The notes under the pieces are model-generated. The model had not been told where the DNA came from. It saw only the letters and a program-made list of their open reading frames with translations, and did no database searches. The translations under genes and the position numbers were made by a program. Shown here one piece after another: positions 25,344-58,551 of a stretch of DNA of 64,000 nt. Source of the DNA: Ralstonia pickettii (GTDB lineage Bacteria; Pseudomonadota; Gammaproteobacteria; Burkholderiales; Burkholderiaceae); assembly GCF_001699815.1 (NCBI RefSeq), contig NZ_MCGB01000097.1, forward strand, positions 1 through 64,000, read 5' to 3'. The stretch's first letter is position 1, and every line of letters begins with the position of its first letter.

Positions 25344-25347
25344 ATCG

Positions 25348-27221: not shown

Positions 27222-27277
27222 GGGTGGCTCCTTCGATTGAGAGATGGCGCAACGCAGCGCCGTGGTACGACTTCGGC

Positions 27278-30048: not shown

Positions 30049-30050
30049 GG

Positions 30051-30395: not shown

Positions 30396-30407
30396 GATGA
30401 AACCCCC

Positions 30408-31457: not shown

Positions 31458-31878
31458 GGCGCTATTCTTTTGGAAAACGGATCAGGCCCTCGCGGCGAAA
31501 GCGGGGTCATTTTTTTCAGCTTTCGCGGAATGAATGCATTGGCGACGATGCAAGGCTCGAAGAGCTGGGGTGCTCAACTGCGCTAAGACCGTCTTGCTTG
31601 TCGCGCAGGACGTAGAACGACAATCCGGGGCGGATACCCGCGATGGACCAAAGTGCGGAAAGCCTCTATGCGGATGGGCGCTTTCCGGGGATTTATCCCG
31701 AACGCGGTAAACCAACGCGCGCTTTTTGGCACCCAAACTTCACTCCGTGAACGCGCTAGTCAGGTGGCTCACCGACTGACATGACATCGGTGAAAAGCTC
31801 GCAAATATCGCGGGGCTTTTGAATCAAGCGTCCGCATTCATTCCTGATTCAATTGTCGGCATCTAATTGGGTGCCGGA
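31458..31878. promoter_or_regulatory. Divergent promoter region of the two transfer operons
   Basis: Four hundred bases between trbB (minus) and trbF (plus), with lower GC than its surroundings towards the trbF side. It must contain the promoters of both trb halves and is the most likely target of a transfer activator. I see several short A/T-rich blocks but no pair of -35/-10 boxes that stands out, as would be expected if an activator is required. A minus-strand frame at 31482-31736 has no protein-like character. Confidence 0.5.
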
Positions 31879-33470: not shown

Positions 33471-33480
33471 AGGATCGGCC

Positions 33481-35485: not shown

Positions 35486-36732
35486 CGAAGTTCCGACACC
35501 TCGCTTTGCTGCTGCCCGTTCTGTCCGTGCAGGCCTTCGCCGCAGACACCGATCCGCTGGATTTCGATTACCAGGTGGTGGCGCCATCCACGGCTCGCCC
35601 CGCGATGATCTTCAACGACGGGTCGAGCACGTACATTCAGCCGCGTGCCGGGCAGACCATCGTGGCCGACAACGGGCAATCATCCGGTCCGTACATCATG
35701 GTTGATGGTGTCCCCGACGTTCTGCACTTCACTGCGAACGGGCAAATGGTGACGGCGCGCTGGAAACGCTCCAACGCGATCACGCGCGAGCCGGCGAATC
35801 CGTCGGGGGACTTGCCCCATGGGTTCACTGGCTTCTCCGGCCGCATCGCGATGGTCGGCGAGCACGGCAATCTGCAACTCGTGCGTCCCGGGAGCGTCAC
35901 GCAGCCGCTGGCGCAAATCGTCAAGGCGATAGCTCCCAGCGGTTGGACGGGGACCGCCCAAAAGACCATTGCGCTGACGGAGGAGACGACGTTCGTCACG
36001 CGGGATGCCGAGAACTGGCTTCAGGCGCTCGGGCGGTTGCTGGACCAGAAGGGTCTCTACGCGGAGGTCGACTTCGGCCGTCGCAACATCGCGCTGCGTG
36101 TTGAGCCGCCCAAGTCGATCGCCGTGGGCGTCGCGGTGGCTTCGTCCGATGCCAGCAACGGCGCGAATGTCGGCAACACAGGTGCGCCAGCAACGGTCCC
36201 AAACGATCAAGGCAGTGGTGACGGTGGCGTGGCCAGCTCGCTATTGGCCGAGGCGTTTGACGCGCAGGCCATCCGCGACACAAAGGCCGGGACGATTCAA
36301 ATTCGCTTTGCGACGAAGCCTGAGGGTCTCCAGATCAGGAACAGCGAGGGCAGCAAGCAGGGCCTGACGTGGCTGGACGGTGATCGCGTGGTCGCGTTCG
36401 ATACCGTGGATCGTTTCACCGTCTCTGCCGCGGGTAAGGCTGTCGAAGTTCGGCGAGCTGCTGAGATTCGCTATGACTTCGCGGCCGACAACGCAGCGGG
36501 CCTCGAATCGGTCTTCGAGAAGGACAACGCGACCTACCTCGTATTCCGAACTTCAAAGGCCAATGTGAGCGCACGCAACGACAACGGCGAGGGCTCGGGC
36601 GAACTGAAGGACCGCTACTTCAAGTTCAACGGAATCGCTGAGCGCTTGACTGTGGTGGCCGACGGCCGCTCAGTGATCGTGGAACGTGTCCCTGAAGTGC
36701 GCTTCTACGAGCGCAAGGCGAGGGTGGAATGA
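35482..36732 (+). CDS. VirB9/TcpQ-like composite periplasmic protein
   Basis: A 416-residue exported protein (signal peptide LLLPVLSVQAFA). Two separated regions look like VirB9/TrbG strands: MIFNDGSSTYIQPRAGQT...YIMVDGVPD near residues 37-80, and VFEKDNATYLVF...DRYFKFNGIAERLTVVADG near 342-400. The middle (~135-215, GWTGTAQKTIALTEETTF and WLQALGRLLDQKGLYAEVD) resembles the TcpQ/STN-like domain of type IVb pilus proteins. A Gly/Asn/Ala-rich linker follows. It may bridge secretion channel and pilus secretin. The call is structural inference. Confidence 0.55.
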   Translation: MTKFRHLALLLPVLSVQAFAADTDPLDFDYQVVAPSTARPAMIFNDGSSTYIQPRAGQTIVADNGQSSGPYIMVDGVPDVLHFTANGQMVTARWKRSNAITREPANPSGDLPHGFTGFSGRIAMVGEHGNLQLVRPGSVTQPLAQIVKAIAPSGWTGTAQKTIALTEETTFVTRDAENWLQALGRLLDQKGLYAEVDFGRRNIALRVEPPKSIAVGVAVASSDASNGANVGNTGAPATVPNDQGSGDGGVASSLLAEAFDAQAIRDTKAGTIQIRFATKPEGLQIRNSEGSKQGLTWLDGDRVVAFDTVDRFTVSAAGKAVEVRRAAEIRYDFAADNAAGLESVFEKDNATYLVFRTSKANVSARNDNGEGSGELKDRYFKFNGIAERLTVVADGRSVIVERVPEVRFYERKARVE

Positions 36733-37205
36733 GCGGATCACGACTCCGAGTGCGAGACGTGAGCGGTGCGAAAAGGCTGTTCGCTTTTTTCGCACTTCTG
36801 CTGGCTCTTGCCAGTTTAGCGCGGGCGGATTGTCTCGACGACGCGGCCAATTACTACCGGCTCGATCCGACGCTCGTTCGCGCCATCGCGTGGCACGAGT
36901 CCGGCATGCGGCCGCTTGCTGTCAATCGCAACTCTAACGGCAGTGTTGACGTTGGCCTCATGCAGATCAACTCCTCCTGGTTTCCGACGCTGGCGCGTGT
37001 GGGCATTGCCCCTGAGCACTTGTGGAATCCCTGTGTTAACGCCTACGTCGGGGCGTGGATTCTGAGCTCGAACATCGCGCGCCTGGGGCCGAACTGGAAA
37101 GCCGTCGGCGCATACAACGCCACTTCACCGGACAAGCAGTTGCGCTACGCCAACCAAATCTACGCGCGCTGGCAGGCATTGCAGCGCGCTGGTGCCAGTC
37201 ATTGA
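36729..37205 (+). CDS. pilT: Lytic transglycosylase, PilT/IagB type
   Basis: A 158-residue exported SLT enzyme: signal segment LFAFFALLLALASLARA, mature start DCLDDAANYYRLDP, catalytic Glu in AIAWHESGMRP, DVGLMQINSSWFPTL and AVGAYNATSPDK. It matches the single-domain IagB/PilT enzymes that accompany type IVb pili (pilT in R64). It opens peptidoglycan locally for pilus passage. Start overlaps the upstream stop by four bases. Confidence 0.85.
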   Translation: MSGSRLRVRDVSGAKRLFAFFALLLALASLARADCLDDAANYYRLDPTLVRAIAWHESGMRPLAVNRNSNGSVDVGLMQINSSWFPTLARVGIAPEHLWNPCVNAYVGAWILSSNIARLGPNWKAVGAYNATSPDKQLRYANQIYARWQALQRAGASH

Positions 37206-37222
37206 CACATTGCGAGACCGTT

Positions 37223-37747
37223 ATGAGAAGCCTTCTTTCCCACAAGCGCATGGCCGTCATCGCGATGGCTGCATGCACCTTCGTTTCCTCCGTCCACGCG
37301 GGGACCCGTACCCAGAGCGTTGACGGCGATGGTTGGCAGCCGCTTGGCAGCAGTGTTCGCAAAGCAAGCGTCGCTGGCCAAGCCAATCGCAACGGAGCCT
37401 CCGATCCCAACACGCTCGTCGCCGCGGCTTCCGCGTTGGCGAGTACCTCACCTGAACCAGCAGTGTCAGTCACGTCCGTTCCCTCAAATAGGCCGTTCGA
37501 ACTCATCGCCGACGAGTCAGTAGAGCAGCAATTGCTTGAGTGGGCGAGGCGCGCGGGTTGGAAGGTCTTGTGGAGGGTGCAGGACGCATGGGTAGTGCCG
37601 GGCAATAAATCCTATGGCGATGACTTTGAATCTGCTGTGAAGCGCGTCACGGAAGACTTGGCAGCCAACGGAACAGACGTGCTCGGCGACAGCTGGCGCG
37701 GCAACCACACGATCGTTATCACCCAGAACGGAGCAGCTGAGCAATGA
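37223..37747 (+). CDS. TcpQ/PilL-C-like pilus biogenesis protein
   Basis: A 174-residue exported protein from ATG 37223 (signal peptide MAVIAMAACTFVSSVHA). A Ser/Ala/Thr-rich linker is followed by a C-terminal ~80-residue domain, VEQQLLEWARRAGWKVLWRV...FESAVKRVTEDL, that matches the TcpQ/PilL C-terminal domain which binds secretins in type IVb pilus and toxin-coregulated pilus systems. It precedes the secretin gene with a four-base overlap, as expected for a secretin chaperone or partner. A longer frame from 37055 overlaps the transglycosylase and is not supported. Confidence 0.7.
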   Translation: MRSLLSHKRMAVIAMAACTFVSSVHAGTRTQSVDGDGWQPLGSSVRKASVAGQANRNGASDPNTLVAAASALASTSPEPAVSVTSVPSNRPFELIADESVEQQLLEWARRAGWKVLWRVQDAWVVPGNKSYGDDFESAVKRVTEDLAANGTDVLGDSWRGNHTIVITQNGAAEQ

Positions 37748-39435
37748 GGATCTTCTATCAACCGAAGCTGATCGCCGGTGCTGTGGCAACGGTCTTGAGT
37801 CTGTCGGGATGCGGTATCGCGGAGGTGCGCGGCATCCAGAAAGACGCGATGCGCGACACGCGCGCGCAGCTCGACGCTGCCCCGAGCAGCCGCCCGGTCT
37901 TCCAGATCCATGAGGGGGCATGGCTTCTTGGCGAGAAGGTCAAGGCGACCAAGCCGCAACCGGAACTCTTCAACAAGCCCGTGTCGTACAACGACGCACG
38001 GGACCGCATCAGTACGCTTGCCGACGTTGCCGACTGGATTGCTCGCACTTACAACGTACGGGTGGTCATCGATCCCTCGGTGAATGCACCGTTCCCCTCG
38101 GCGCAGTCCATTGTGACCACCGGCGCAACCGGCGCAGTCAAGGGGCCGCAACTACCCGCAGGGCTCGCCACGAGTCTTGCAGGCGCGCCCAACGCAACGT
38201 TGGCCGCCCCAGGTGGCATGCAGTCTGGGGCCGCAGCGATGCCGACGCAGTCACCGCTGCACTACGTTGGCGATTTCAAGGGTTTTATGCGGACGAACGA
38301 GCAGCGCTACAACGTCTACTCGCGCTTTCGCGACGGCACCCTCACGTTCTTCCGAGTCGAGACCCGGAACTTCACGTTGCCTGACATGGGAGCCTTCGCT
38401 TCCATGAGCGGGACGATCTCCAGTGACGGCAACCTGTCTTCCAGCTCGGGCGGCACGTCGGCTTCTACCACTAGCTCCACATCTGGCGGTTCAAGCGGTT
38501 CGGGCACCGGCGGACAAACAGCCAGCCAGTCGTTGGAAGTGAAACCGTGGAAACGCTTGGAGGAGATCGCCAAGCAAATTGCGGGGAATGGTGCGGAGGT
38601 CATCGCCGACCCGAATCTGGGGACTGTCACTGTCACCGGGACGCCGCCACAGTGTGATCGTGTTGAGGACTGGGTCCGTACTCTTGATGCCATGTTCGGT
38701 AAGCAGGTCGCCATCGACGTGCGCATCTACGAAGTCCGGCTCAATCAAGAGGACAACTACGGCTTGAATCTCTCGCTCGGGTACAAGAGCGGAAATGGGC
38801 ACACCGGTGCCACGTTCACCGGGGTGGCGCCGCCAACGGTGTCGAGCAACGCGACACCCATGTCCGTCGGCGCGACGATTGTCGGCGGCAAGCTGGACGG
38901 TACCAAGGTGGCAGTGCAAGCGCTGTCGACGCTGGGCAACGTTACGCAGGTTGTGTCGCGTTCGGGAGTTACCCAAAACGGCAAGGTCATGGCAATGCAG
39001 TCTGCAACTTTGCAGGACTACATCCCGAGCTCGCAGACCACGTTGGCGTCGAACGTGGGTTCCACGTCTTCCATGCAAACCGCCCCTGACATCTCCGGCT
39101 TCACAAGCACGTTCACGCCAAAGGTTGTCAACGGCCGCATCTTGATCATGTTCGACATGACCCTGTCGAATCTGAACCCGCTACAAGAACAGACCCAGGG
39201 CAGCGGGGCCTCCTTGTCCAAGGTGCAGCTGCGAACCAAGCCACTGGCACGTTTCCAGCAGACCGTCGGCCTGAAGCCGGGCGAGTCGCTGGTACTTACC
39301 GGCTTGCGCGATCAAACGACCAGTACCACGAACAACGGCGTTGGCTCGCCCTACGTCCCAGTGACGGGCGGTGGGGTGGATGCCGCAAAGCGCGAAACGA
39401 TGATTGCCGTCGTTATCACCGCACGGCTTCTTTGA
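37744..39435 (+). CDS. pilN: PilN-type lipoprotein secretin of the type IVb pilus
   Basis: A 563-residue outer-membrane secretin with a lipobox (VLSLSGCG). N-domains ~85-330 include ISTLADVADWIARTYNVRVV and QIAGNGAEVIADPNLGTVTV; a Ser/Gly-rich stretch lies at ~225-260. The secretin domain spans ~315-560 with VAIDVRIYEVRLNQEDNYGL, VVSRSGVTQNGKVM and the terminal LARFQQTVGLKPGESLVLTGL. Length and layout match R64 PilN (~560). It forms the pilus exit pore. Confidence 0.9.
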   Translation: MRIFYQPKLIAGAVATVLSLSGCGIAEVRGIQKDAMRDTRAQLDAAPSSRPVFQIHEGAWLLGEKVKATKPQPELFNKPVSYNDARDRISTLADVADWIARTYNVRVVIDPSVNAPFPSAQSIVTTGATGAVKGPQLPAGLATSLAGAPNATLAAPGGMQSGAAAMPTQSPLHYVGDFKGFMRTNEQRYNVYSRFRDGTLTFFRVETRNFTLPDMGAFASMSGTISSDGNLSSSSGGTSASTTSSTSGGSSGSGTGGQTASQSLEVKPWKRLEEIAKQIAGNGAEVIADPNLGTVTVTGTPPQCDRVEDWVRTLDAMFGKQVAIDVRIYEVRLNQEDNYGLNLSLGYKSGNGHTGATFTGVAPPTVSSNATPMSVGATIVGGKLDGTKVAVQALSTLGNVTQVVSRSGVTQNGKVMAMQSATLQDYIPSSQTTLASNVGSTSSMQTAPDISGFTSTFTPKVVNGRILIMFDMTLSNLNPLQEQTQGSGASLSKVQLRTKPLARFQQTVGLKPGESLVLTGLRDQTTSTTNNGVGSPYVPVTGGGVDAAKRETMIAVVITARLL

Positions 39436-39447
39436 TACCTGGGGTTC

Positions 39448-40158
39448 ATGATGAATCGACATTTCTTGTCTGCAGCGGTTGGACTTGCGCTGAGCGCCGG
39501 TGCAGGATTTGCAATTGCGCAGGGTGCCTCGGCGCCTCGCATGGAGAAGGCGATGCAGGCCGCTCAATCCATTCGTGATGCGCAGCCTTCGGCAACAACA
39601 ACTCCGCCAACGACAACACCTGCGGCTCGTACCGCGCAAGTTGCAGAAACGTCTGTACGGCCAACCCAGGCTGCTCCATCACCCCAGGCGTCGATTCCTG
39701 TTGCGGCTGCGCCTTCGCCGAAGACCGAAGCCGCTCAGGCAGGTGCTGAGGCCGACGAACTCAGCATCCTGCAACGGCAAGCGGCAGTCCTGAAGGTCAA
39801 GGCTGAAATTGCGAAGTACCAGGCGGACATCAAAAGCTCGGAGTCGCGCGCGATGCAGGCTGCAACGAGCGTGACGCCTGGGCAGGCAGGGGAACCGGGA
39901 GTTGTTCCGTCGCTGGTCGTTCCCGGCAACGTTACGAAGCCACCGATTCCGCTACCTGCGGCCAAACATGGGAAACCGCGTCTGGTTCACATCGGGGGAG
40001 CTGACGGCGTCTACTCGGCTCTCATCGAAATCAACGGCATCACGATTTCGGATGCAGTGGCTGGCACTCAGCTCGGCGATGGCTGGCAAGTCATCGGCGT
40101 CGATGCGAAACAAGTCAGAGTGGGTCGCGGCAAGCAAGTTCTGAAGCTCGCGGTGTGA
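39448..40158 (+). CDS. pilP: PilP-type pilus biogenesis protein
   Basis: A 236-residue exported protein with an N-terminal signal-like segment (AAVGLALSAGAGFAIAQG), a low-complexity Thr/Pro/Ala-rich linker, a short coiled coil (LQRQAAVLKVKAEIAKYQADI) and a C-terminal HR-like domain (PRLVHIGGADGVYSALIEIN...GTQLGDGWQVIGVDAKQVRV), as in R64 PilP. It probably connects the inner-membrane platform with the secretin. In R64 pilP follows pilO; here the order is pilN-pilP-pilO. Confidence 0.8.
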   Translation: MMNRHFLSAAVGLALSAGAGFAIAQGASAPRMEKAMQAAQSIRDAQPSATTTPPTTTPAARTAQVAETSVRPTQAAPSPQASIPVAAAPSPKTEAAQAGAEADELSILQRQAAVLKVKAEIAKYQADIKSSESRAMQAATSVTPGQAGEPGVVPSLVVPGNVTKPPIPLPAAKHGKPRLVHIGGADGVYSALIEINGITISDAVAGTQLGDGWQVIGVDAKQVRVGRGKQVLKLAV

Positions 40159-40159
40159 C

Positions 40160-41413
40160 ATGGCTCAAGTCCTCAACCTTCCAGGGATCAAGGGCACCTA
40201 TGCCGTCGGCCTGACTTGGCGGCATGAGGATGCCAGGCCAAGCCGCGCGGCACTGCGCAAGAAGGCTCGTGATCTGCAAGCACGGTGGAGTGTCGTCCAT
40301 CAGACGCGCACAGGGCACGTACAGGCCGGCTTTTGTGCGGGCCTCGAGGGCGCTGCCTCCAACTGGCGAACCAAGCCGCTTGCAGCCCTTGTCGCTGACT
40401 CACATCCTCAGCCTTGGTGCGGCTTCTATCGGATCAGCGCTGACCTGTATTGGTACATCGCGGTGCGCGACGGCCAGGAGGTTTTACCGGACGGGGACCG
40501 GACTGGCACGCTCGAAGAATTGGAGCAACTCCATGCGTTGCACAAAGCGTCCGGTGACTGGAACGTAGTCCGCGGGACCGAAGCCGAACTCGCAGACATC
40601 GTTCGCACTTCGCGATCGGTGAAGGGGCTGACCGATCTGGAGCCGGGGCCGCGACGCTACGTGCTACCGGTGGCCGGGGTGCTGACAGTGGCGGCATTGG
40701 CCGGCGTCGGCACGTGGTGGTATCAGCAACGGCAGGCTGAGGCACAGCGCGCTGCGGATCTCGCGCGACAACGTGCTGCACAGGCGATGCACGCGGCAAA
40801 GCAAGCCAAGCAACAAATTCCGCCATGGACACTTCAACCTGTGCCGTCTGCTGTTGTCGACGCATGTCGTTCGGCTTGGCACGGCAGGGCACTCGCCACG
40901 AAAGGTTGGTTGCTGACCGGCTGGAGCTGCCAGTTCGGTAGTCCCGTCACGGTCAACGTTGCCGCTCAATGGGAGCGCGACGGGGGTGTGGCTGAGGACG
41001 CGCCCGGCACGCTCCTCGACGATGGAAACCACTCTCGCTCGACGGAAGTTAAGCCCTATACGTTCACGATCCAACCAACAGGTATTGATGATTTTGAGGT
41101 TGCGAAGCGCATCGTTTGGAGCGTGTCGCACCGCAAAGCTTTCCAGTTGAAGCTGGCGGCGACGCAGCCCGCCGCGCTTCCTGGCGCGAATGGCCCCGAT
41201 GCACCTGAACCGGCCCCGTGGATTGGGAATGCGGCCGATTTCACGCTTGCGATGGCTCCATGGTTCAGCGGTGCTTCTGCATTCGATCAAGTCCCAGGTT
41301 TGCGGCTGACCGAGGTCAGCGTCGACCTGCGAGATGGCCAGTGGCATGCGAAAGGGACGCTCTACGTTAACCGTTTTCCTGGGGCGACTGCTGCCCTCAA
41401 GGTGGGGAGCTGA
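40160..41413 (+). CDS. pilO: PilO-type (PilO2) type IVb pilus protein
   Basis: A 417-residue protein. The cytosolic N-terminal ~170 residues (FYRISADLYWYIAVRDGQEV, LEELEQLHALHKASGDWNVV) resemble the actin-like N-domain of PilO2/BfpC-like proteins, followed by one transmembrane segment (YVLPVAGVLTVAALAGVGTWWY), an Ala/Gln coiled coil (QRQAEAQRAADLARQRAAQA) and a periplasmic domain. It is an inner-membrane platform component that recruits the PilQ ATPase. Stop and next start are one base apart. Confidence 0.8.
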   Translation: MAQVLNLPGIKGTYAVGLTWRHEDARPSRAALRKKARDLQARWSVVHQTRTGHVQAGFCAGLEGAASNWRTKPLAALVADSHPQPWCGFYRISADLYWYIAVRDGQEVLPDGDRTGTLEELEQLHALHKASGDWNVVRGTEAELADIVRTSRSVKGLTDLEPGPRRYVLPVAGVLTVAALAGVGTWWYQQRQAEAQRAADLARQRAAQAMHAAKQAKQQIPPWTLQPVPSAVVDACRSAWHGRALATKGWLLTGWSCQFGSPVTVNVAAQWERDGGVAEDAPGTLLDDGNHSRSTEVKPYTFTIQPTGIDDFEVAKRIVWSVSHRKAFQLKLAATQPAALPGANGPDAPEPAPWIGNAADFTLAMAPWFSGASAFDQVPGLRLTEVSVDLRDGQWHAKGTLYVNRFPGATAALKVGS

Positions 41414-41414
41414 C

Positions 41415-43001
41415 ATGGTGGCTTTGGTTGAGCGGTTCAGGGCATTCTCGCGCGTTGACGCGCATGTCGAGCCAATGCGGCTCCCGCCTGTTCCTGCCAC
41501 GCTGATGCAACACGTCGTGTGGGCGGGGGTCGGCGAGAAGATTCAGGTCGATGGCCGCTATGCAGGTGGTTCGGCCTTTCTCACATGGTTGGCTGACCTC
41601 AAACGCCATGGTCTGGAGCCGGTTGTTGAATCTCTTGCCCCGCAGGAGCTGGCGCAAGCGCGCGAAAGCACGTCGGACGGGCAATCGGGCGACGCATACC
41701 TTGAGTTTCTGGAAATGTCGCGCCGGCGGCACGTCGAGGCTGCCGAACTGGGGGCGTCCGACCTTCACGTTCTGCAGCGAGAAGACCATGCTGAATTTCA
41801 GTTGCGCATTGACGGCGAGCTATGGACGGTGCCCGAGTGGGAACTGAACGCTGCGCAGGGGGAAGCTTTTGTGCGAGCAACTTGCGTCGGCCTCGCAACC
41901 GTCAAAGAGCCGACATTCAATCCGCTCGAGTTCCAGGAAGCGCAGATCAGCGGCAACAAGCTGCCTGAGACCGATATTGAAAGTGTTCGCATTACGCGCG
42001 GCCCAGCCTATCCGATCGAGGCCGGTGGTGGCGTCATGGTTAATCGCCTGCAACCGCGCAGGCACACGGCCACACTTCAGCGACGCGAGACGCCGGCGAG
42101 TCGTCTGCGACTGGTGAGACCGGAGGCGCCGGCCGGCAAAGTCGACTTTGAGCGGATGGGATTCACGACGCTGCAGCTCGCGATGTTCGAGCAGGTCGTC
42201 CTGATGCCGGATGGTCTGTTTATTCAGACGGGGCCGACGGGAAGTGGCAAGACCACGACCGGCTACGAAATGCTGCGCTACAAGGGGCAGATTTCGCCCG
42301 AGCTGCGGCAGATCACCCGTGAGCATCCGGTCGAGTACCCGCGTGAATGGGCAGTGCAACTGCTTTCGACGGGGCAGAACTCCTCATACCTCGTCGAACG
42401 CATGCTCCGGATGGACCCGGACATCATCGACATCGGCGAGATCCGCACAGGCAATGAAGGTGTTGCAGCAGTTCAGGCAGCGCAGACCGGGCACTTGGTC
42501 TTCGGCTCGCTCCACGTTCTTGATCCGTTCGAACTGATTGGTCGCCTGCAAATGCTCGACCACACGCTGCTTTCCAAGGAGTTGATGTGCAACCACAAAA
42601 TCATCGCGGGTTTCATGGGGCAGCGGATGGTTCCCGTGCTGTGCACGGAGTGTCGGGAGCCATTGGCCAAACATCTCGACGCAATGCCGGGAATTCTGCT
42701 CGACCGCATCAAAACCTGGGGAAACATCGAACAGGTCCATGTGCGGGGAAAGGGATGTCCGCACTGCTTCGGCCGGCAAATCCGCGGGCGTGAGGCAGTT
42801 GCAGAGGTTGTCCTTAGCACCGAAGAGCTGATGGAAGACTTCCTCAGGGGGACGTCGTTGGCACGTCGAAATCACCGCCTGCGTGAGGGCTCCGACAAAT
42901 CCATGCTCGGCAATGTCATGGAACGTGTGTTGGCCGGCAGGATCGATCCGCGCGACGCGCAGAAGAACGTGCCCATTGAGGCGTATCGCGAGGGCGTATG
43001 A
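41415..43001 (+). CDS. pilQ: PilQ-type pilus assembly ATPase
   Basis: A 528-residue GspE/PilB-like traffic ATPase starting at ATG 41415 (MVALVERFRAFS), directly after the pilO stop. N-terminal domain ~1-170; Walker A QTGPTGSGKTTTGYEM near residue 270, Asp-box REHPVEYP, Walker B-like DPDIIDIGEIRTGNEG and the His-box GHLVFGSLHVLDP. A C-terminal Cys cluster (CTECREP ... GCPHCFG) is the zinc-binding C1E-like element of PilB/GspE enzymes. It powers pilus extension. R64 PilQ is of similar length. Confidence 0.9.
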   Translation: MVALVERFRAFSRVDAHVEPMRLPPVPATLMQHVVWAGVGEKIQVDGRYAGGSAFLTWLADLKRHGLEPVVESLAPQELAQARESTSDGQSGDAYLEFLEMSRRRHVEAAELGASDLHVLQREDHAEFQLRIDGELWTVPEWELNAAQGEAFVRATCVGLATVKEPTFNPLEFQEAQISGNKLPETDIESVRITRGPAYPIEAGGGVMVNRLQPRRHTATLQRRETPASRLRLVRPEAPAGKVDFERMGFTTLQLAMFEQVVLMPDGLFIQTGPTGSGKTTTGYEMLRYKGQISPELRQITREHPVEYPREWAVQLLSTGQNSSYLVERMLRMDPDIIDIGEIRTGNEGVAAVQAAQTGHLVFGSLHVLDPFELIGRLQMLDHTLLSKELMCNHKIIAGFMGQRMVPVLCTECREPLAKHLDAMPGILLDRIKTWGNIEQVHVRGKGCPHCFGRQIRGREAVAEVVLSTEELMEDFLRGTSLARRNHRLREGSDKSMLGNVMERVLAGRIDPRDAQKNVPIEAYREGV

Positions 43002-44071
43002 ATCTCCAGAAAGCTCTGCAGTGGCTGAAGGGCAATCCTCTGCCATGGAAGCTCCGAAAACGCCTCTATGAACGTGCGTCAACGCATCTGGCGAACGACG
43101 TAACGCTAGAGCGCGTGCTTACCCGGTTCGGGGCCGGCTTGCTACGACGGCGAAAACGTCGCGCTGCTGCTGCAATCGATGCCGTGACACAAGGCGTCCG
43201 CAACGGCCAGACGCTGGCGGCGGCAATGGACTCGTCGCTCACCAATCTTGAGCGAACCGTGCTCGACGCTGGTGATCGAGCGGGCAAGCTTCCCGAGGCA
43301 ATGAAGCTCGTCATCGAGGTGCGCGAACTGGTGGATCGCATCTTTTGGAAGCTGATCCTCGGCTTCGCGCCGGCGCTTGTCTATGTCTACGCGCTCTACA
43401 AGGTACTCGGCTTTATCGGTGCCGACGTAGTGCCCGAGTTCGCAGGAATCTTGCCGGCCGAGAAGTGGACCGGATGGGCACGCGTCCTCTACCTGATGGG
43501 CGTGTTTGCACAAAGCGCGGCAATGCCTTTGGCGACGTACGGGCTGCTTACCTATGCGCTCTGGTGCGCATGGGCGTTACCGAACTGGGCTGGCCGTGGG
43601 AGGGCGTTCTTTGATCGATGGGTTTTTCCGTTCCCACTCTATCGGGAGATCGCAGGGTTCTCTTGGTTGCTGTCGTTTCTTGCTCTGCAGCGGGCGGGCA
43701 TCCCTGAAGTGGAATCGCTGGCCGCACAGGTGCGCACGGCATCGCCATGGTTGGCGTCGCGGCTGCTCGCCATTTCATCCGGCACACGCAATGGCTTTGA
43801 TCTTGCAACTTCCATGATGCGGACTGGGCACGACTTCCCTTCCGTGGATCTGATCGATGAGATCGGCGAGTACATGGGCAAAGCCGACTCGTCGGAAAAG
43901 CTGGCGAACGTGGCGCGAGAGAACGCGGCCTATGTCGAGCGAAAGGTGCTTGCGATCGGCGGTGGCATGGCGTTGACCCTGAGTCTTCTTGTGTACGCAG
44001 CCATGTTTGTCATGCAGTTTGGCTCAAACGCGCTTTCGTCGGCTCTCACGTCGTCGATGAGGCAGATGTAA
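42998..44071 (+). CDS. pilR: PilR-type inner-membrane platform protein (GspF/PilC family)
   Basis: A 357-residue protein with two T2SF cytosolic helical domains (~60-130, containing GQTLAAAMDSSLTNLERTVLDAGDRAGKLPEAM; and ~235-320, GIPEVESLAAQVRTASPWLASRLL...ATSMMRTGHDFPSVDLIDEIG). Three to four hydrophobic segments separate or follow them (LILGFAPALVYVYALYKVLG, SAAMPLATYGLLTYALWCAW, ALTLSLLVYAAMFVMQFG). It anchors the PilQ ATPase. Overlaps pilQ by four bases. Confidence 0.9.
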   Translation: MNLQKALQWLKGNPLPWKLRKRLYERASTHLANDVTLERVLTRFGAGLLRRRKRRAAAAIDAVTQGVRNGQTLAAAMDSSLTNLERTVLDAGDRAGKLPEAMKLVIEVRELVDRIFWKLILGFAPALVYVYALYKVLGFIGADVVPEFAGILPAEKWTGWARVLYLMGVFAQSAAMPLATYGLLTYALWCAWALPNWAGRGRAFFDRWVFPFPLYREIAGFSWLLSFLALQRAGIPEVESLAAQVRTASPWLASRLLAISSGTRNGFDLATSMMRTGHDFPSVDLIDEIGEYMGKADSSEKLANVARENAAYVERKVLAIGGGMALTLSLLVYAAMFVMQFGSNALSSALTSSMRQM

Positions 44072-44107
44072 ATCGTTGGACGTGGTTTTACTTTAGGAGA
44101 GGGTGAT

Positions 44108-44608
44108 ATGGAACGGATCATTGGGGCGCTCGTGGCGATCGCGCTGGCAATCCTCGCAGTGGGCAACACGCTCAGCAACAGCGGGCAGGCGAAGTCGGAT
44201 CAGAAGAGTGGTGGCGCGGCGACGGATATTGGCTACGTCATGACAAAGGCCCGAGCAGGGTTCGCGCAGAGCAATACCGGCTTTGCCAATTTTTCGAACG
44301 CGAACCTGGGCGGGCTTATTAACGGAGGCACCTTCCCTCCGACCATGGTCAAGAGCGGAGGCATTTTCGACAAGTGGGGCAATCCCATTACTTTGAGTTC
44401 GGCAAATAGTGGCACGAGCGGGGTGATCTCTTTTGGGGGTGGCGGGTCGCAAACAACTGACGAATGCACGTCCACCGTGACGAGTCTGTCAGGCTACGAC
44501 TTGTTGACGGTTGGCGGTCAGAGTTTTACACGCAGCAACATGCCTGACACGTCGCAGGCCGGCGCTGTTTGCTCCGCGACCGCAACGATTGTCGTGACGT
44601 TCCACTGA
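44108..44608 (+). CDS. pilS: Type IVb major pilin PilS-like, atypical leader
   Basis: A 166-residue protein with an N-terminal hydrophobic helix (MERIIGALVAIALAILAVGN), followed by a pilin-like alpha/beta region (DIGYVMTKARAGFAQSNTGF, NPITLSSANSGTSGV) and two late Cys residues likely to form the D-region disulfide. An AGGAGAGG site precedes the ATG. The usual class III prepilin leader and the Glu at mature position 5 are absent. Possible cleavage after Gly6 is speculative. No prepilin peptidase gene is seen in the window. Confidence 0.75.
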   Translation: MERIIGALVAIALAILAVGNTLSNSGQAKSDQKSGGAATDIGYVMTKARAGFAQSNTGFANFSNANLGGLINGGTFPPTMVKSGGIFDKWGNPITLSSANSGTSGVISFGGGGSQTTDECTSTVTSLSGYDLLTVGGQSFTRSNMPDTSQAGAVCSATATIVVTFH

Positions 44609-44630
44609 GCCCCAGCGAGTCAGCGTTTCG

Positions 44631-45107
44631 ATGGCATTCGCACTCCTTCCGCTCGCCGCAGTCATGCTGCTGTTCGGGCTTGGCATTCAAGCGTTCCAGC
44701 TCGCCGACAGTGTTCCTGGTGCCGGCCCCGCAGGCCAGATGGAGACGCGCTCGGTGGTGTCATCTCAGCAAGCTGCGATGTTTGGGACCGCATGTGTTAG
44801 CACAGCGATCGCGCAGCGTGGCGCAATCAGTCCAAACATGACCGTGACGCTACCGGCAGGTGTGTTGCTGCCTGCTGGTGCTGTTTGTATGACGACGGCG
44901 AATGGTAGCGGTCGCAACGTCTACGGGTACCTGCCAGCGGCACCTGGTGCAGCGGGAAAGTTACTCGCCGATGCGCAGGGCGGCAACAATTGGTTCGTCA
45001 TCCGGGCCGCAGGTGTGGCGGTGAGTTTGGCGGGCGGAAACACCATGTCAGTACCCACGACCATCCCCGTTAGCTCACTCCTCAATTGGGTTCAGACGTC
45101 TTCCTGA
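44631..45107 (+). CDS. PilM-like small pilus biogenesis protein
   Basis: A 158-residue protein with one N-terminal transmembrane helix (ALLPLAAVMLLFGLGIQAFQ) and a periplasmic remainder with the pattern VSSQQAAMFGTACVSTAIA and a conserved-looking NWFVIRAAG strand. It resembles R64 PilM in size and layout, though gene order differs (pilM precedes pilN in R64). Alternatively it is a minor pseudopilin. Located between pilS and pilV. Confidence 0.55.
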   Translation: MAFALLPLAAVMLLFGLGIQAFQLADSVPGAGPAGQMETRSVVSSQQAAMFGTACVSTAIAQRGAISPNMTVTLPAGVLLPAGAVCMTTANGSGRNVYGYLPAAPGAAGKLLADAQGGNNWFVIRAAGVAVSLAGGNTMSVPTTIPVSSLLNWVQTSS

Positions 45108-45119
45108 AGGCGACGCGCA

Positions 45120-46418
45120 ATGGATGCAATTCTCGGTTACATGATCGCCATCGCCCTGTCGTTGCTGAGCGTGGGGCAGTTCTACCAGTGGCAGGCGTCG
45201 GGCATGACAAACGTGCAGACTGCGGCCGCGGCAAGCCAGCAGGTGATCTACAACAAGGCCGCGGCTCAGTACGTTCAAGACAACGGGACATCGATCGCGG
45301 CGATTGCAACGCCTACCGTGCCGGTGACCATCACCACCGCAATGCTGATCAGCAGCGGTTACTTGCCGAACGGCTTTTCGACCACGAATGTTTTCGGACA
45401 GACATGGCAACTTCAGGTCCTGCAGCCCACCGCGGGGACGTTGCAGTCGGTCGTGCAATCGGTTGGCGGGAGGGCAATCGCGGACACTGTCCAGCTTGTT
45501 CAGATTGCCGCCCAAGCAGGGGCGCAGGGCGGATTCGTCCCCTATGCCGGCCAGAATGGTGACGCAACCATGACCCCCGCAAATGCTTACGGCGCATACG
45601 GGGCATGGAAGCTTCCGTTGACCAATTTCACCAATCCAGGCAGCGGTCACCTGGTGTCACTGCTTGCGTTCACAGGCGTGAGTGCGAACAACAGCTATCT
45701 GTACCGCGTTCAGGTTCCTGGCCATCCCGAGCTGAACAACATGCAGACCGACCTTGGTATGACCGATCAAGGGGGGGCGCTGCACAACATCAGTGGCGCA
45801 CAGCAGATCAGCTCACAAAGCTTGCAGGCTCTTTCCGGTGGTTCGCTTGCCGTGCCATCGATCACGACCGCAAACGGCAAAGTAGTCACTTGGGAGCAGG
45901 TGGGCGAGGGCGGTGTGCTAGGCCTGAAAGGATCGAACGGTACATCGATCTACCTTGAGAGCTTGAATGGCACGTTCCGTATCGTCAACAACCCTTGGAC
46001 ACAGTCCATATTCTCGGTCGACCAGTCCGGCGATGTGGTCGCGGCGGGAACGCAGAGGCTGGGTAACGTTGCTTCGCCCAACACGGCGTGTGCCCAAAAC
46101 GGAACACAGGCAGGCAATGCTGATGGCTCTGGCCAGCAATTAGTTTGTCTGTACAACGTGTGGAAACCAATTGGCGGGAGCTTGCAGCGCTTCGGGTATT
46201 ACACCGCGCAACATGGTTCTGGAATTCCGAGGCCGACTTGTCCGGCGGGCGGAACCCCGATGATCGTTGTGACCCCGGCGAACTTTGCGGTCGATCCGAC
46301 GACGGTCGTCAACTATGGAGCGTGGGGATCAGGCCCGTGGACTGTCTACATCATGGATGGATCAAATGCCGGCATCGGTGGCGCGACTGCCACTGTTGGG
46401 ACCTATTGCGGATACTAA
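45120..46418 (+). CDS. pilV: PilV-type minor pilin/tip adhesin (no shufflon)
   Basis: A 432-residue protein. After a hydrophobic N-terminus (MDAILGYMIAIALSLLSVGQ), residues ~60-110 (VPVTITTAMLISSGYLPNGF...FGQTWQLQV) closely follow the R64 PilV N-terminal region. A long Gly/Ser/Asn-rich middle carries repetitive beta-strand sequence, and the C-terminal ~75 residues contain Cys-Gly-Tyr-rich receptor-binding-like sequence (GYYTAQHGSG...GTYCGY). No inverted 19-bp shufflon repeats or rci recombinase follow, so the tip is probably fixed. The classic prepilin leader is missing, as in PilS. Confidence 0.8.
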   Translation: MDAILGYMIAIALSLLSVGQFYQWQASGMTNVQTAAAASQQVIYNKAAAQYVQDNGTSIAAIATPTVPVTITTAMLISSGYLPNGFSTTNVFGQTWQLQVLQPTAGTLQSVVQSVGGRAIADTVQLVQIAAQAGAQGGFVPYAGQNGDATMTPANAYGAYGAWKLPLTNFTNPGSGHLVSLLAFTGVSANNSYLYRVQVPGHPELNNMQTDLGMTDQGGALHNISGAQQISSQSLQALSGGSLAVPSITTANGKVVTWEQVGEGGVLGLKGSNGTSIYLESLNGTFRIVNNPWTQSIFSVDQSGDVVAAGTQRLGNVASPNTACAQNGTQAGNADGSGQQLVCLYNVWKPIGGSLQRFGYYTAQHGSGIPRPTCPAGGTPMIVVTPANFAVDPTTVVNYGAWGSGPWTVYIMDGSNAGIGGATATVGTYCGY

Positions 46419-46430
46419 TGGAGTCGTGAA

Positions 46431-47072
46431 ATGAGGATGCTACTTAGGGTCTTGTCGGTGATTGTGCTTCTGGCGGGATCCAGACTTGCAATGGCGAACC
46501 CTGTGCTTTGTTCACCGGGATACCAAGACTCGACTTGCCCGAGCCCTATCGCAAGGGGCCCAGTCCCGGCACCGCAGTGTTCGTCTGGCGCTGGATGGAC
46601 GACGACTTCAAGTCCCGTTTGGAAGGGTTCCTATTGGAGTGCGCCTGGCTGCAACTATCAGCCACCGCCTTCGTGTCCTTCGGGCTACTACGCTGCCAGT
46701 GGCCCTTCTTGGAATGGATCGAGCTGGGTAGGCCTGAACTGTCAGCCGACGGCACCTCCGCCCCCGCCGCCGCCTGCAGGTCACGTGTTGGTGGCAACGT
46801 ATACAACCAACAGCTGTGGCAACCTTGGGCCCTTTAATGGATACGCAGACGGAACGTATGACGCCAGCAACTCCGATTGGGGAGGGCAGACTTTCTCTGG
46901 TACTTGGGACCAGATGTATTACAACGGGGTAGCGTATATGAACTCGAACTATGCTCGTTACATTGCTCCAGCTTACATCTCCCAGCCTTCGGACCCAGCG
47001 ACGGCTACACAATATTTGTCGCGAGTGTTCTTTGTCTACAACCCGTGGGCATGCGGCGGCGGTGTTGGCTAA
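46431..47072 (+). CDS. Secreted Cys/Pro-rich protein after pilV
   Basis: A 213-residue protein with a signal peptide (LLRVLSVIVLLAGSRLAMA). The mature part has two imperfect repeats of the form CPSGYYAASGPSWNGSSWVG with paired Cys, a run of eight Pro near residue 110, and a Tyr/Asn/Gly-rich C-terminal domain ending WACGGG. It is unrecognised. Position as the last gene of the pilus operon, before a terminator, suggests a surface-exposed or pilus-associated adhesin. Confidence 0.6.
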   Translation: MRMLLRVLSVIVLLAGSRLAMANPVLCSPGYQDSTCPSPIARGPVPAPQCSSGAGWTTTSSPVWKGSYWSAPGCNYQPPPSCPSGYYAASGPSWNGSSWVGLNCQPTAPPPPPPPAGHVLVATYTTNSCGNLGPFNGYADGTYDASNSDWGGQTFSGTWDQMYYNGVAYMNSNYARYIAPAYISQPSDPATATQYLSRVFFVYNPWACGGGVG

Positions 47073-49225: not shown

Positions 49226-49371
49226 ATCGTTGTCCTTTGTGGATGGGGAGGCACCCGCCGCCAGTCGTGACGCCGCGGCAGAGGCTTCTACGTCTTGAGC
49301 GTACGCCGAGAGAATCAGAGTCAAGCTCGGGCGGCATCGCCAGCCCATCCACCATTCGGGGCCCGATCCAG

Positions 49372-50553
49372 CTATGCGAGTTGTTTGCGCGGTTTGCCCT
49401 TGCGTGGCGCCGTCAACGCACCTGTGCATGACGGGCAATAGAAGGACGCCGCCAGTTCGATTTTTGGCGTGGTATTGCACGTCAGATAGTGCGTGGAACA
49501 GGTGCGGCAACTGGACATGGACAAATCGCTGCCGGTGGACACTGATCGGGCCAAATGGAACGCCCGGTCCGGGGTCAGCCGCGCGGCATCGCCGAACAGA
49601 CGCCCGACGGTGTCGAGTGCGGTGATGAACGCCTCTGGCTCGTTCGCACGTGCGGCAAGGGCGCTCCAGTACAGCCAAATCAGCGTCGTCGACTGAATGC
49701 GGCTCGACACCGACTCCACGTACCAGGATGACGAGGAGGGCATCAGGCCGCAGGGAGACGATTCGCCGTGGATTTGTCGATAGAGAGCGCGCGCCGTAGC
49801 CGCGGTGCCAGGGAACATCGAGGCCACGCTGGATGCGCGGCAACGCAGGCCAATGAGCGCCTCGGTATAGCGTTCCATCTGCGCGCGGCCGACGCGGAAA
49901 TTTCCCCAGCGTTCACGTTGCAGGGGCCGCGGGGCACGTGAGTCGCCGGCGTTCATCACGTGGTGGCAGATCGTCTCTTCCGAGATGAGGTTGGCCGAAT
50001 ACTCAAGCCAGAACATCGGATTCTCAAAACGCCAACGGAACATCGGGAAGTTGGCGCCGAAGATGGCAAGCTCCAGCTCGTGCTGAGACACGGTCACGAG
50101 ATAGTCAGCCAGGTCTTGCGGCATGCCCAGCAGTTGAGCGGCAACGGGCGTGGAGTGGAGTAGGTCGACTACCATCCAGACGTAATCCTTGTTCTGGTGG
50201 AACAAGCTCATCTTCAGGCTGGGATCAAGGTTGCCGAATTCCGCCTTCACCTTGTCAATGGCCAGGGTTGGTGTCGTCTTCTTGATGAGGCTGCGCCAAT
50301 CTTCGACGTTCTTGAACATCGGTGTCACGACCAGGAACGGTGTTCCCATCAACTGCCGCTGCCCTGCAGCGTTCTGCGCGAGCATGGCCAGCTCTTCCGG
50401 CCGCACTCCAAATACTGGCGCCACTTCCCGGTGCCGAAGCATGCAGGTGCCCATGAAATCCGCAAGCTGGTAGTTGATGGAACGGATCCGGTCGGTAATC
50501 CGGTCGGGAAGGATGAGCGAGTCTTTGGCAGAAAGAGCAGTCGAACGAGTCAT
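49372..50553 (-). CDS. FlhD-FlhD-FlhC-like fusion transcriptional activator
   Basis: A 393-residue protein. Residues ~228-380 align by eye with FlhC: an LGxR helix region, then LYRQIHGESSPCGLMPSSSSWYV (FlhC has a GMLPFSTDWF equivalent), and the Zn-binding pairs C349/C352 and C373/C376 within SSCRTCSTHYLT...SFYCPSC. Residues ~22-86 and ~118-182 each resemble FlhD (IRSINYQL...VFGVRPEEL...; DYVWMVVDLL...LLGMPQDLADYL...FRWRFEN). If so, both subunits of the FlhD4C2 activator are fused. SetDC and AcaDC of conjugative elements are relatives; regulation of transfer is the likely role. Downstream of the coiled-coil gene on the same strand. Confidence 0.65.
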   Translation of the reverse strand: MTRSTALSAKDSLILPDRITDRIRSINYQLADFMGTCMLRHREVAPVFGVRPEELAMLAQNAAGQRQLMGTPFLVVTPMFKNVEDWRSLIKKTTPTLAIDKVKAEFGNLDPSLKMSLFHQNKDYVWMVVDLLHSTPVAAQLLGMPQDLADYLVTVSQHELELAIFGANFPMFRWRFENPMFWLEYSANLISEETICHHVMNAGDSRAPRPLQRERWGNFRVGRAQMERYTEALIGLRCRASSVASMFPGTAATARALYRQIHGESSPCGLMPSSSSWYVESVSSRIQSTTLIWLYWSALAARANEPEAFITALDTVGRLFGDAARLTPDRAFHLARSVSTGSDLSMSSCRTCSTHYLTCNTTPKIELAASFYCPSCTGALTAPRKGKPRKQLA

Positions 50554-50603
50554 GGCGAGAGAGTCAGTTGTTGTTTTTGGGACCGGCGCTTGAATCAGGC
50601 GGT

Positions 50604-51812
50604 TTACGTGCGTGTCCGGCGGGACACGCGGTTTGTGGTCTCGGTGGTCGCGAGCGCAGCGTTCACTTCACCGAGGAATTTGGTCAGGACGCCAGCGAGG
50701 CCTTCGAGAATGGGACGGCATTCGGCCGATGCGTTGGCAAAGATGGCCGTGAGTTGCGCAGACTGGTATTTGTGTGCGACGGATTCGATGTCGGCAACCA
50801 GCGTGATCATCTTCGCTCTGGCGTCAGCAGACGAGTTGATGTCGTCCTGCTGTTGTGCGATTTCCAGGTTGAGTCGATCAAGCTCGTCCTGCTTGCGCTT
50901 AACGTCCTCATTGGCCGCTTCGAGGCGACGGTTGGCTTCTTGGAGCGCATCGTCCAGGGTCTGGAGTCCTGGCGGCAGAACGTGCACTTCGACTGTCTCT
51001 TTCACAGCCGCCGGTTGGCCGCTCTCTGCCCTTGCTGCTAGCGCGTTGCGTTCGCGCGTGAGACGGTCGATCTCTTGCTGTAGCGTGCTGACGGTCGAAG
51101 AGCTGCGGGTGACCTGGAGTTGTGCTTCGTCCATGGCACGCTGCCGATTGGCCACCTCCTCCTGGGACACCGTGAGTTGGGCAGCCAGAGTTCGAATCTG
51201 TGCTTCAAGATCGCGGTTGTTGTTCAGGTTTTCGTTCAGCTCTTCCTGCGTGACTTGGAGCTGCAGGCCGGTATTGGTCAGATCCTCTTCTGTCTTCCGA
51301 AGCTTCTCGATGATCGGCCGGATGTCCTCGCGTTTAAAGCTATCCGTCTTCAACTTGTGCTCGATGACCTTGTCGACTTCGTCATCGGTGATGTCCTTGC
51401 GGGCCAAGATCTTCATCTCACCCAAGGTCAGGTTGGTGATGGCCCGGCTGTTGTTCGCAAACTTCCTGTAGATGTTGATGTAGAGAGCCACGCGTGAATC
51501 GGTCATCCGAAGGACGGTGCTTGCGTAGCTGGACAGCATGGCACTCCCGCGCTTCCTGGCCACGGTCTCATCACCGAGGGTGCGCGTGAGGCTCCCCATG
51601 ATGATGCCGTCAATGTGGACCAGCCGTGCCCCAATTGCGATGAACTCGGCCACGACACGGTTTTGCGACTGCCAGATTTCCTCGGTCGCCTGTGCGATTC
51701 GGCCAATCGACGATTCGTCCAGGTCCATGAACTGGGTCCTCGCGAATGTCATGGCGGAGACAGAACCGTCGTCCGTGATCGTTTGCGCAAGCTGGAAGTC
51801 CGTATGAGTCAT
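50604..51812 (-). CDS. DUF3102-like protein with long coiled coil
   Basis: A 402-residue protein starting MTHTDFQLAQTITDDG at 51812. The N-terminal ~150 residues (ESSIGRIAQATEEIWQSQNR...GARLVHIDGIIMG...LRMTDSRVALYINIYRKF) resemble DUF3102, a DNA-binding-like module of phage and plasmid proteins. Residues ~190-350 are strong Gln/Glu/Arg-rich coiled coil, and a helical C-terminus follows. Layout resembles KfrA-like partition/stability proteins. It precedes the FlhC-like fusion by 50 bases on the same strand and may form an operon with it. Confidence 0.6.
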   Translation of the reverse strand: MTHTDFQLAQTITDDGSVSAMTFARTQFMDLDESSIGRIAQATEEIWQSQNRVVAEFIAIGARLVHIDGIIMGSLTRTLGDETVARKRGSAMLSSYASTVLRMTDSRVALYINIYRKFANNSRAITNLTLGEMKILARKDITDDEVDKVIEHKLKTDSFKREDIRPIIEKLRKTEEDLTNTGLQLQVTQEELNENLNNNRDLEAQIRTLAAQLTVSQEEVANRQRAMDEAQLQVTRSSSTVSTLQQEIDRLTRERNALAARAESGQPAAVKETVEVHVLPPGLQTLDDALQEANRRLEAANEDVKRKQDELDRLNLEIAQQQDDINSSADARAKMITLVADIESVAHKYQSAQLTAIFANASAECRPILEGLAGVLTKFLGEVNAALATTETTNRVSRRTRT

Positions 51813-52558
51813 GTCGATGTAAGCCAGTGGAGTGTTCTCGTGACCGGAGCCAGATGTGCTCAGGCGCCAAACGGGCGGTGCGATGCGGATGGTTACCGCG
51901 AATGCACCTCCTCTTCGAGCCATCGTAAGGCGGTCAGGGAGAAGTCAAGTGAACGCGTGGCCTGCGATGTGCGAGAGCAAAATCGAAGGTCATCGGTTGG
52001 GGCGGGTCGGAAAGCGGCTACATACGAACGGCCTATTACGAATTGCTAAAGGAAGACGCGACTCTATCGTTGTATCGTTCGCCGAATCGCAATACTTAAC
52101 CCCAATGAGGTGGGGTGTGGGTGCAGTATTTGGAGGGGTGCGTGAATTAAATGAAGCTAATATCAGTCGTCAAAGCGAATTAAGATTTTCTGAATGCATC
52201 TTCAAATGCCCCACAAAAGGGGGGCATCCGATGGCATGAGCGTCGCGTCATCCACTGCCTTGCAGCGGATAGGCTCGCGCGTGCGAGCTTGCGCGGATCC
52301 ACTGCATCCGCTAAAGTTCGTGACATCTCCGCGTCGTTGACGCATCGAACTTGCGCTTGATGGAGCAACTCCATCTGGCTTCACAGCCGCTCAGCGCCAT
52401 TCTCCCTTTCTGATTTGTCCCGGCTCAGCTTGTTTGCCTGACGCTCGCGCGTGAGGCAAGCACGTTGTTGCTTGCGGGATTCCTTGCTCATCCGAGCATC
52501 GAATGATCGCCTGGCAGCCGCCAGGAAATCCCTTGCCGCGTTTTCTGGAGAGAGAACC
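51813..52558. other. Non-coding region with hairpins between divergent operons
   Basis: About 745 bases without a gene that I can support. It separates the minus-strand coiled-coil/FlhC-like operon from the plus-strand ssb-primase block and should hold both promoters. Hairpins seen: atgcccc/ggggcat at 52206-52227, a gcaagca/tgcttgc pair near 52456-52475, and cctggc/gccagg at 52510-52525. The AT-rich part around 52080-52200 is a plausible promoter zone. It could also contain oriT, but no nick-site consensus for a MobH relaxase is known to me. Confidence 0.5.
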
Positions 52559-58341: not shown

Positions 58342-58551
58342 GTCGCCTTACGTTGGGACTGTACGAGGCTGCGCCGGCTGTTTGATGGAAGAAAGCCCGT
58401 CAATCTTGCGTAGCTTTCGTGCGGCGCAATTCACTGGGCTGCCCTATCCTTGAGTCACCACACGCGTCCCCCGACGCATCGATAGCTCCGCGAAGACCGC
58501 GGAAACTCAGGGTGAGCCGGCGACCAAGAGGTTGTTGGGCACCAATGTTCG

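Follow-up and report, generated by a model that had tools for sequence, protein, structure and literature searches.

Promoters of the FlhDC-type activators FlhCD, SetCD and AcaCD keep a −10 element and have no −35 element, according to the available part of PMC4542580. The E. coli FlhDC box, AAYGSSNNAAATAGCG-N10-12-CGCTATTTNNSSCRTT, sets its AAA and TTT 20-22 nt apart (PMC9962212, available portion). On IncC plasmids AcaDC and AcaB form a positive loop, as described in the accessible text of PMC9927553; the acaD gene of these plasmids is vcrx148 and encodes a protein of 202 aa (PMC3915882 and PMC4207636, accessible parts of each). Megaplasmids of the pMOL28/pHG1/pRALTA type have a common backbone, together with genes for metal resistance, hydrogen oxidation or symbiosis (PMC2864759, in its accessible sections); in the open-licence literature we found no paper on the control of their transfer. 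Here we describe a plasmid gene that appears to bring the parts of an FlhDC-type activator together in one polypeptide, and a candidate operator through which it may act.

Results

The window, by which we mean the whole stretch of 64,000 nucleotides analysed, contains at 49372..50553 on the minus strand a single open frame of 393 aa, exactly where an earlier note on this DNA had placed an FlhD-FlhD-FlhC-like fused gene. Full-length relatives (at least 80% of the query covered, less than 60% identity) were found in 48 plasmid records of the genera Cupriavidus, Burkholderia, Paraburkholderia, Caballeronia and Robbsia, and 45 of these 48 relatives already bear the RefSeq name "FlhC family transcriptional regulator". 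The remark in the note that no example had been described thus holds for the fusion, since we found no description of a fused FlhD-FlhC protein in the open-licence literature, and fails for the protein as a member of the FlhC family.

Among 397 Burkholderiaceae genomes, 61 (from 5 of 25 genera) matched the fusion at E 1e-30 or better; at E 1e-20, one of 369 genomes of the class and two of 398 genomes of the phylum matched, all of them Burkholderiaceae. As only about four candidates per genome were scored in most of these runs, absences in the genome searches are soft. No relatives were found in the phage and viral collections, and of 14 candidates from an initial scan of genome contigs, for which the query was the window protein by itself, none was confirmed. 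Stand-alone FlhC-like proteins in three further genomes were set aside, having the appearance of flagellar-type FlhC. In two genomes (G681, contig C8, and G775, contig C303) the fusion gene is split into two pieces. Positions 49300-51300 of the window are identical to contig C3 (336,372 bp) of the nearest genome.

The C-terminal half of the protein contains an FlhC domain at residues ~224-378 (49420..49884, minus strand). The match to Pfam FlhC (PF05280) has an E-value of 9.5e-8 and 32.4 bits, above the curated cut-off of 27 bits, and the model is matched by all 19 members of our first alignment. With phmmer the window protein by itself finds solved FlhC (2avu, 4.1e-4; 8j56, 6.9e-4), a profile of 19 homologues finds the FlhC of 8j56 at 3.6e-10, and hhalign against the flagellar FlhC profile gives a score of 101.5 over 149 columns. 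A G-x-x-P-x-S-x-x-W type segment is present, and the zinc-site type cysteines 349, 352, 373 and 376 (49426..49509, minus strand) occur in all 87 aligned sequences, and likewise in all 54 that remain when those at least 98% identical are dropped (the alignment holds 87 of 88 candidates; L132, which lacks a full frame, was left out). As far as sequence comparison goes, this confirms an FlhC domain with a candidate zinc site, in agreement with the pattern that the note had recognized. The NCBIfam FlhC equivalog model was matched with 33.7 bits, far under its cut-off of 216 bits, indicating that the domain is not a flagellar FlhC equivalog.

For the N-terminal half, the note had claimed two consecutive FlhD-like regions and had named profile comparison with FlhD as the test. 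The comparison upheld the second region (residues ~115-188; 49990..50211, minus strand) directly. The 19-sequence profile matched solved FlhD (8j56_A) at 1.3e-4 through columns 114-194, and hhalign of region 2 against the flagellar FlhD profile scored 43.0 over 74 columns, a value reached by none of 100 column shuffles (best 17.8) and well above 65 unrelated profile slices (at most 18.5). The window protein alone had no match to Pfam FlhD (PF05247) at the curated cut-off; four of the 19 homologues matched this model, the best at 0.0016. Nine of the matches obtained when 399 Burkholderiales genomes were searched spanned region 2 and FlhC with a stop codon in between; these are presumably adjacent flhD-flhC genes, so that region 2 and the FlhC half would stand in the order of the flhD-flhC operon. 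By these profile scores, we regard region 2 as a confirmed FlhD domain.

The first region (residues ~17-96; 50266..50505, minus strand) has no direct match to FlhD and is linked to it transitively. Against FlhD alone it scored 13.9 with hhalign, which is at chance level (18 of 150 shuffles were as high), and hhalign self-comparison of the N-terminal half gave no match. Against region 2, region 1 scored 20.9 over 78 columns, end to end; this score was reached by none of 150 column shuffles and by 12 of 150 when blocks of six columns were shuffled. When FlhD and region 2 were pooled, the score was 26.3 over 80 columns, and neither 200 column shuffles (best 20.8) nor 200 ten-column block shuffles (best 22.9) gave as high a value, while 65 unrelated slices stayed at or below 17.8 and 200 unrelated pairs at or below 17.1. 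Asn 27 and Asn 121, both aligned to an FlhD Asn, are kept in 86 of 87 and 87 of 87 sequences, respectively. Region 1 is therefore, with high probability though by an indirect route, a degenerate FlhD. Given the clear region 2, and a region 1 that aligns to it and does so more strongly with FlhD pooled, FlhD-FlhD-FlhC with a degenerate first FlhD is the likely architecture.

An unfused operon of the same kind is present in Cupriavidus sp. USMAA2-4 (NZ_CP017750.1, 108187-110152; L204:3688-5653), where genes for a 339-aa coiled-coil protein, a 114-aa FlhD-like protein (D) and a 179-aa FlhC-family protein (C) lie beside TraI/TraD. It is like the fusion locus in gene order; unlike the fusion, it encodes two separate proteins with a single FlhD, and it was seen in one record of the plasmid collection. 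The D protein scored 60.8 over 90 columns against FlhD plus region 2, and 23.1 over 83 columns against region 1 (a single sequence, scored without shuffle controls); the C protein matched the fusion's FlhC half with a score of 120. A tree built from 23 FlhC domains placed the fusions in one group (support 99/96) with the USMAA2-4 C protein as its sister (95/89), both apart from flagellar FlhC and AcaC; for this tree the tool warned that long branches meet. The simplest history would be an operon of coiled-coil protein, D and C, in which D was doubled and then fused to C.

The note had also treated AcaD as an ordinary separate subunit. Pfam FlhD matches AcaD only at residues 106-179. When AcaD and two relatives were used, the first half of the protein scored 54.5 over 71 columns against the second half, and the first half of AcaD scored 26.7 against FlhD, with unrelated slices at 15.9 or less. 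Judged by these profiles, AcaD is itself a tandem FlhD, encoded on IncC-type plasmids by genes at L205:47369-47974, L206:1201-1800 and L207:1225-1803, and two FlhD units in one chain are thus not new. As region 1 of the fusion did not match the first repeat of AcaD (12.7), the doublings of FlhD in AcaD and in the fusion may be separate events. AcaC matched the FlhC of the fusion weakly (36.6). On pSN254 the stretch after acaD (L205, ~47902-48524) has no listed gene and is read in two frames, so acaC looks interrupted there.

The note had placed the gene on a plasmid with transfer functions, and type IV secretion genes are indeed part of the plasmid backbone around the fusion. Genes read leftward at 24084..31457 (minus strand) encode a VirB11-type ATPase, a VirB4-type protein and a TraI_2 relaxase-type protein (Pfam), and those read rightward at 31867..47072 (plus strand) encode VirB8, CagX, TrbI, a pilus ATPase, T2SSF and PilS (Pfam and similarity to annotated loci). 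A Rep3 replication gene, starting at 15749 (Pfam), and a PRTRC D relative also lie around the fusion in the window. Just upstream of the fusion is a gene for a coiled-coil protein (50604..51923, minus strand; start codon uncertain), which gave matches of the coiled-coil type only. Of 18 related plasmid loci, 17 have this gene directly upstream of the fusion, and the two genes probably form one operon.

The window also holds a separate FlhD-family gene of 100 aa (19503-19802, minus strand; Pfam 7.9e-19) with no adjoining FlhC, which occurs on one other genome of the genus, G007. We considered it as a conserved partner of the fusion and rejected it, since a search of the plasmid collection at E 1e-3 gave no relative of it and 17 of the 18 related plasmids had no separate FlhD over the Pfam cut-off (the one that did has an FlhC beside it). 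Four weaker FlhD matches in the 18 plasmids are the fusion itself, and a second FlhC is found in two of the 18. A further gene of B. ubonensis, on a plasmid and named AcaB in RefSeq (L191:3116-3727), has relatives on the window's plasmid, pMOL28 and pHG1; these AcaB-like genes, at L221:14626-15213, L190:41241-41808 and L189:7158-7697, are each near a copy of the leader element described below, and the one on the window's plasmid lies outside the 64,000-nt window. Pfam support for the AcaB name is weak (0.062), and there is none for the copy of the window's plasmid.

The leader element came to notice through a short core that three plasmids had in common. Its pattern, TCGATGCGTC-N-GACGC, comprises two hairpins, a short one and, after it, a variable one. 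The window has copies of TCGATGCGTC at 52339..52348 and 58473..58482 (both minus strand); the promoter of the first reads along the plus strand towards an SSB gene cluster and has no good copy of the operator described below. All 20 fusion-bearing records (18 plasmid records plus the genomes G001 and G007) contain the element, with 2 to 11 copies per plasmid in the 18 plasmids, where the reversed pattern had no matches; the copies of each plasmid lie on one strand, save for one odd copy each in two of these 18 records. Read from the other strand, the leader is found 11-14 nt after a −10 box, TANNNT, in 52 of 71 non-redundant cases. In this count and in that of the 74 leader promoters below, redundant rows more than 70% alike were dropped, and three chance-like leader matches located inside genes (L163, L167 and L185) were kept.

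At least five leader elements were counted in 52 of 58 fusion-positive and 18 of 329 fusion-negative genomes, these counts being read by eye and the pattern also arising by chance in GC-rich chromosomes; at least one match was present in 246 of 387 genomes. Six of the 18 leader-rich, fusion-negative genomes were searched, and the fusion was absent from them. We therefore rejected the idea that the leader strictly marks the fusion, and, as the plasmid backbone is common to the carriers, the association of the two is no proof of function. Nothing in the window reached the Rfam gathering score (one chance match lay near the leader), and the leader core with one mismatch was not enriched in the window (8 copies; 8.7 expected). 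The 18-base stretches common to intergenic regions were overall no better than shuffles.

Upstream of the −10 box of the leader promoters we found a 28-bp inverted repeat, GAAAGC-N16-GCTTTC; at least 10 of its 12 positions agree in 46 of 74 leader promoters versus 15 of 370 shuffles. In nine stretches (357,642 bp in all), the spacing of 16 gave 8 perfect copies and 23 copies with at most one mismatch, while 23 other spacings gave 0-1 and 0-4, respectively, in the same DNA; in 37 partly redundant contigs the spacing of 16 gave 4 perfect copies and 45 with at most one mismatch, versus 0-2 and 0-6 for the others. A 400-kb chromosome sample of the same genome contained no copies. The whole window plasmid, scanned in 17 pieces so that a boundary-spanning site would be missed, has 3 perfect copies and a small excess of one-mismatch copies (7 versus 0-5 at other spacings). 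With up to three mismatches, the 39 copies in the window are no more than chance (32 expected). Of 22 annotated sites 20 are intergenic, versus 14.1% expected (P 1.7e-15), as placed on gene lists compiled by hand from annotated loci; the remaining one of the 23 sites, L003 position 230, is outside the annotated stretch and was left out.

Three copies of the box lie in the 409-bp intergenic region between the divergent transfer operons of the window. Two are perfect (31497..31524, which is 40 bp from the VirB11-type gene, and 31658..31685), and one has two mismatches (31793..31820; weight matrix score 30.9, training median 30.3). Another perfect copy (58391..58418) is in the leader-element promoter before PRTRC D, and a copy with one mismatch (15539..15566) lies 183 bp before the Rep3 gene. 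The placement recurs elsewhere: in B. ubonensis a box is 39 bp before the VirB11-type gene and other copies precede PRTRC ParB, and on pHG1 and pBVIE02 the coiled-coil/fusion operon has a box facing it, at a distance of 146 and 134 bp. The coiled-coil/fusion promoter region of the window itself has no copy with at most one mismatch.

On 29 of 100 non-redundant box sides (rows more than 75% alike dropped), TANNNT starts 26 or 27 nt from the box, compared with 0-2 at each other offset, a preference that is partly circular, many of these sites being the very leader promoters that had led us to the box. No TANNNT is present 26-27 nt away from the boxes between the transfer operons of the window. 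In the leader promoters L164, L168, L169, L176, L183, L186, L189 and L190, a long near-perfect hairpin, without TANNNT, replaces the box; such hairpin-bearing leader promoters could be single-strand DNA promoters. The box promoters have a −10 box without a clear −35, and the AAA...TTT gap of the candidate operator is 20, within the range of the E. coli FlhDC box. These two properties, together with the leader excess in fusion-positive genomes, make the fusion the best candidate for the binder, and we consider the chances evenly balanced that the fusion protein binds GAAAGC-N16-GCTTTC.

Discussion

The above comparisons suggest that the fusion has a role in the control of plasmid transfer, which we regard as probable; given the matching 28-base site before the transfer genes, it probably switches transfer on. 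With somewhat less confidence, we favour the view that it does so as a self-contained, single-chain activator of the FlhDC type, serving the plasmid rather than flagella. In this proposal each chain would contribute two FlhD units, the first of them degenerate and the second clear, and one FlhC with its zinc site. A pair of chains would thus amount to an FlhD4C2-like body, with four FlhD and two FlhC, and no separate subunits would be needed. The form that binds GAAAGC-N16-GCTTTC would most likely be a two-fold symmetric dimer of the fusion. Once bound, it would activate promoters having a −10 box and no clear −35, namely those of the divergent type IV secretion/pilus operons, the replication gene, and genes of plasmid-maintenance and leading-region type; further targets would be the AcaB-like regulator and, on some relatives, the operon of the fusion itself. 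Control of the trb and pil promoters by the fusion, in particular, we infer from the candidate operator.

A wider reading, which we put forward tentatively and a little short of even confidence, is that an FlhD-FlhD-FlhC protein, made in one piece, acts as the master activator of a whole family of megaplasmids in the Burkholderiaceae, pHG1 and pMOL28 among them. It would bind GAAAGC-N16-GCTTTC, switch on transfer, replication and maintenance genes together, and form a feedback loop with an AcaB-like partner, in the manner of IncC. The same reading has FlhD doubled separately in the fusion and in AcaD, so that selection would twice have locked the 2:1 ratio of FlhD to FlhC covalently.

The operator might belong to another regulator of the plasmid, most simply the adjoining coiled-coil protein, with the fusion acting elsewhere or as a partner. 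The coiled-coil gene adjoins the fusion in nearly all of the related loci (17 of 18) and has a counterpart in the unfused sister operon, the N-terminal part of its product appears, judged by eye, to contain a helix-turn-helix, and there are the 18 genomes that are rich in leader elements and fusion-negative, with the fusion absent from the six searched. However, the geometry of the operator equals that of the FlhDC box (PMC9962212, available portion), and FlhDC, SetCD and AcaCD typically act on promoters that lack a clear −35 (PMC4542580, available part). We therefore hold this alternative to be doubtful, if a serious one. Another possibility is that the box is part of a folded strand and not a protein operator at all. 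The leader promoters, which may be compared with Frpo, would then be single-strand DNA promoters of a leading region, as could be expected from the restriction of leader copies to one strand per plasmid (save the odd copies in two of 18 records) and from the long hairpin that stands in place of the box in several of them. It is harder to reconcile with this the perfect boxes that have no leader, located between the two divergent transfer operons and, in another genus, before the VirB11-type gene, or the fixed distance from box to −10; we consider it unlikely.

The remaining alternatives concern the protein itself. It might be a plain FlhD-FlhC fusion to which region 1 adds an unrelated domain, in line with the chance-level score of region 1 against FlhD alone, the 12 of 150 six-column block shuffles that reach its score against region 2, and its failure to match the first repeat of AcaD. 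This we judge rather improbable, because the end-to-end match of region 1 rises to 26.3 when FlhD is pooled, with none of 400 shuffles, 65 unrelated slices or 200 unrelated pairs as high, because Asn 27 and Asn 121 are kept, and because the unfused D protein can be aligned with region 1 along 83 columns (23.1). The fusion might also partner with an FlhD of the host or of the plasmid, or act on host flagellar genes. The host does have ordinary FlhD and FlhC genes, on chromosomal contig C2 of the nearest genome, and the window's plasmid carries its extra FlhD gene at 19503-19802. That gene, however, lacks relatives in the plasmid collection, nearly all related plasmids (17 of 18) are without a separate FlhD over the Pfam cut-off, and the gene context is one of transfer and maintenance, not flagella, which makes this the most improbable of the alternatives and one to which we give very little credence.

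What is new here is the single-chain fusion of a probable tandem FlhD with FlhC, the unfused sister operon and the candidate operator. A regulator, a 28-bp candidate operator and a list of promoters can now be named for testing on megaplasmids of the pMOL28/pHG1/pRALTA type, in laboratory strains that are harmless. A single-chain FlhDC would suit structure work on what is a hard multi-subunit activator, and AcaD as a tandem FlhD recasts a well-known regulator of IncC plasmids.

Flagellar FlhD4C2 (2avu, and 8j56 from Cupriavidus by the names of its depositors) resembles the fusion in its four-Cys FlhC domain and its FlhD domain, and its palindromic site has an AAA...TTT gap of 20-22, compared with 20 in the candidate operator; it is built of separate subunits and serves a flagellar regulon, whereas the fusion is one open frame in a context of transfer and maintenance. 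BisDC of ICEclc, as presented in the available text of PMC7423338, is likewise a transfer activator and includes the FlhC-like BisC; its BisD, unlike the fusion, is a ParB-domain protein in which, according to that text, an FlhD domain was not detected. SetCD of SXT/R391 is close to the role proposed for the fusion, being an FlhCD-like activator of conjugation whose promoters have no −35 (PMC4542580, available part); this likeness is by published description, and SetCD is encoded by two genes. AcaD/AcaC of IncC and AqaD/AqaC of pAQU1 are plasmid-borne and of the FlhDC type, as is the fusion, but consist of two chains where the fusion has one, and AcaD is, as the N-terminal half of the fusion probably is, a tandem FlhD.
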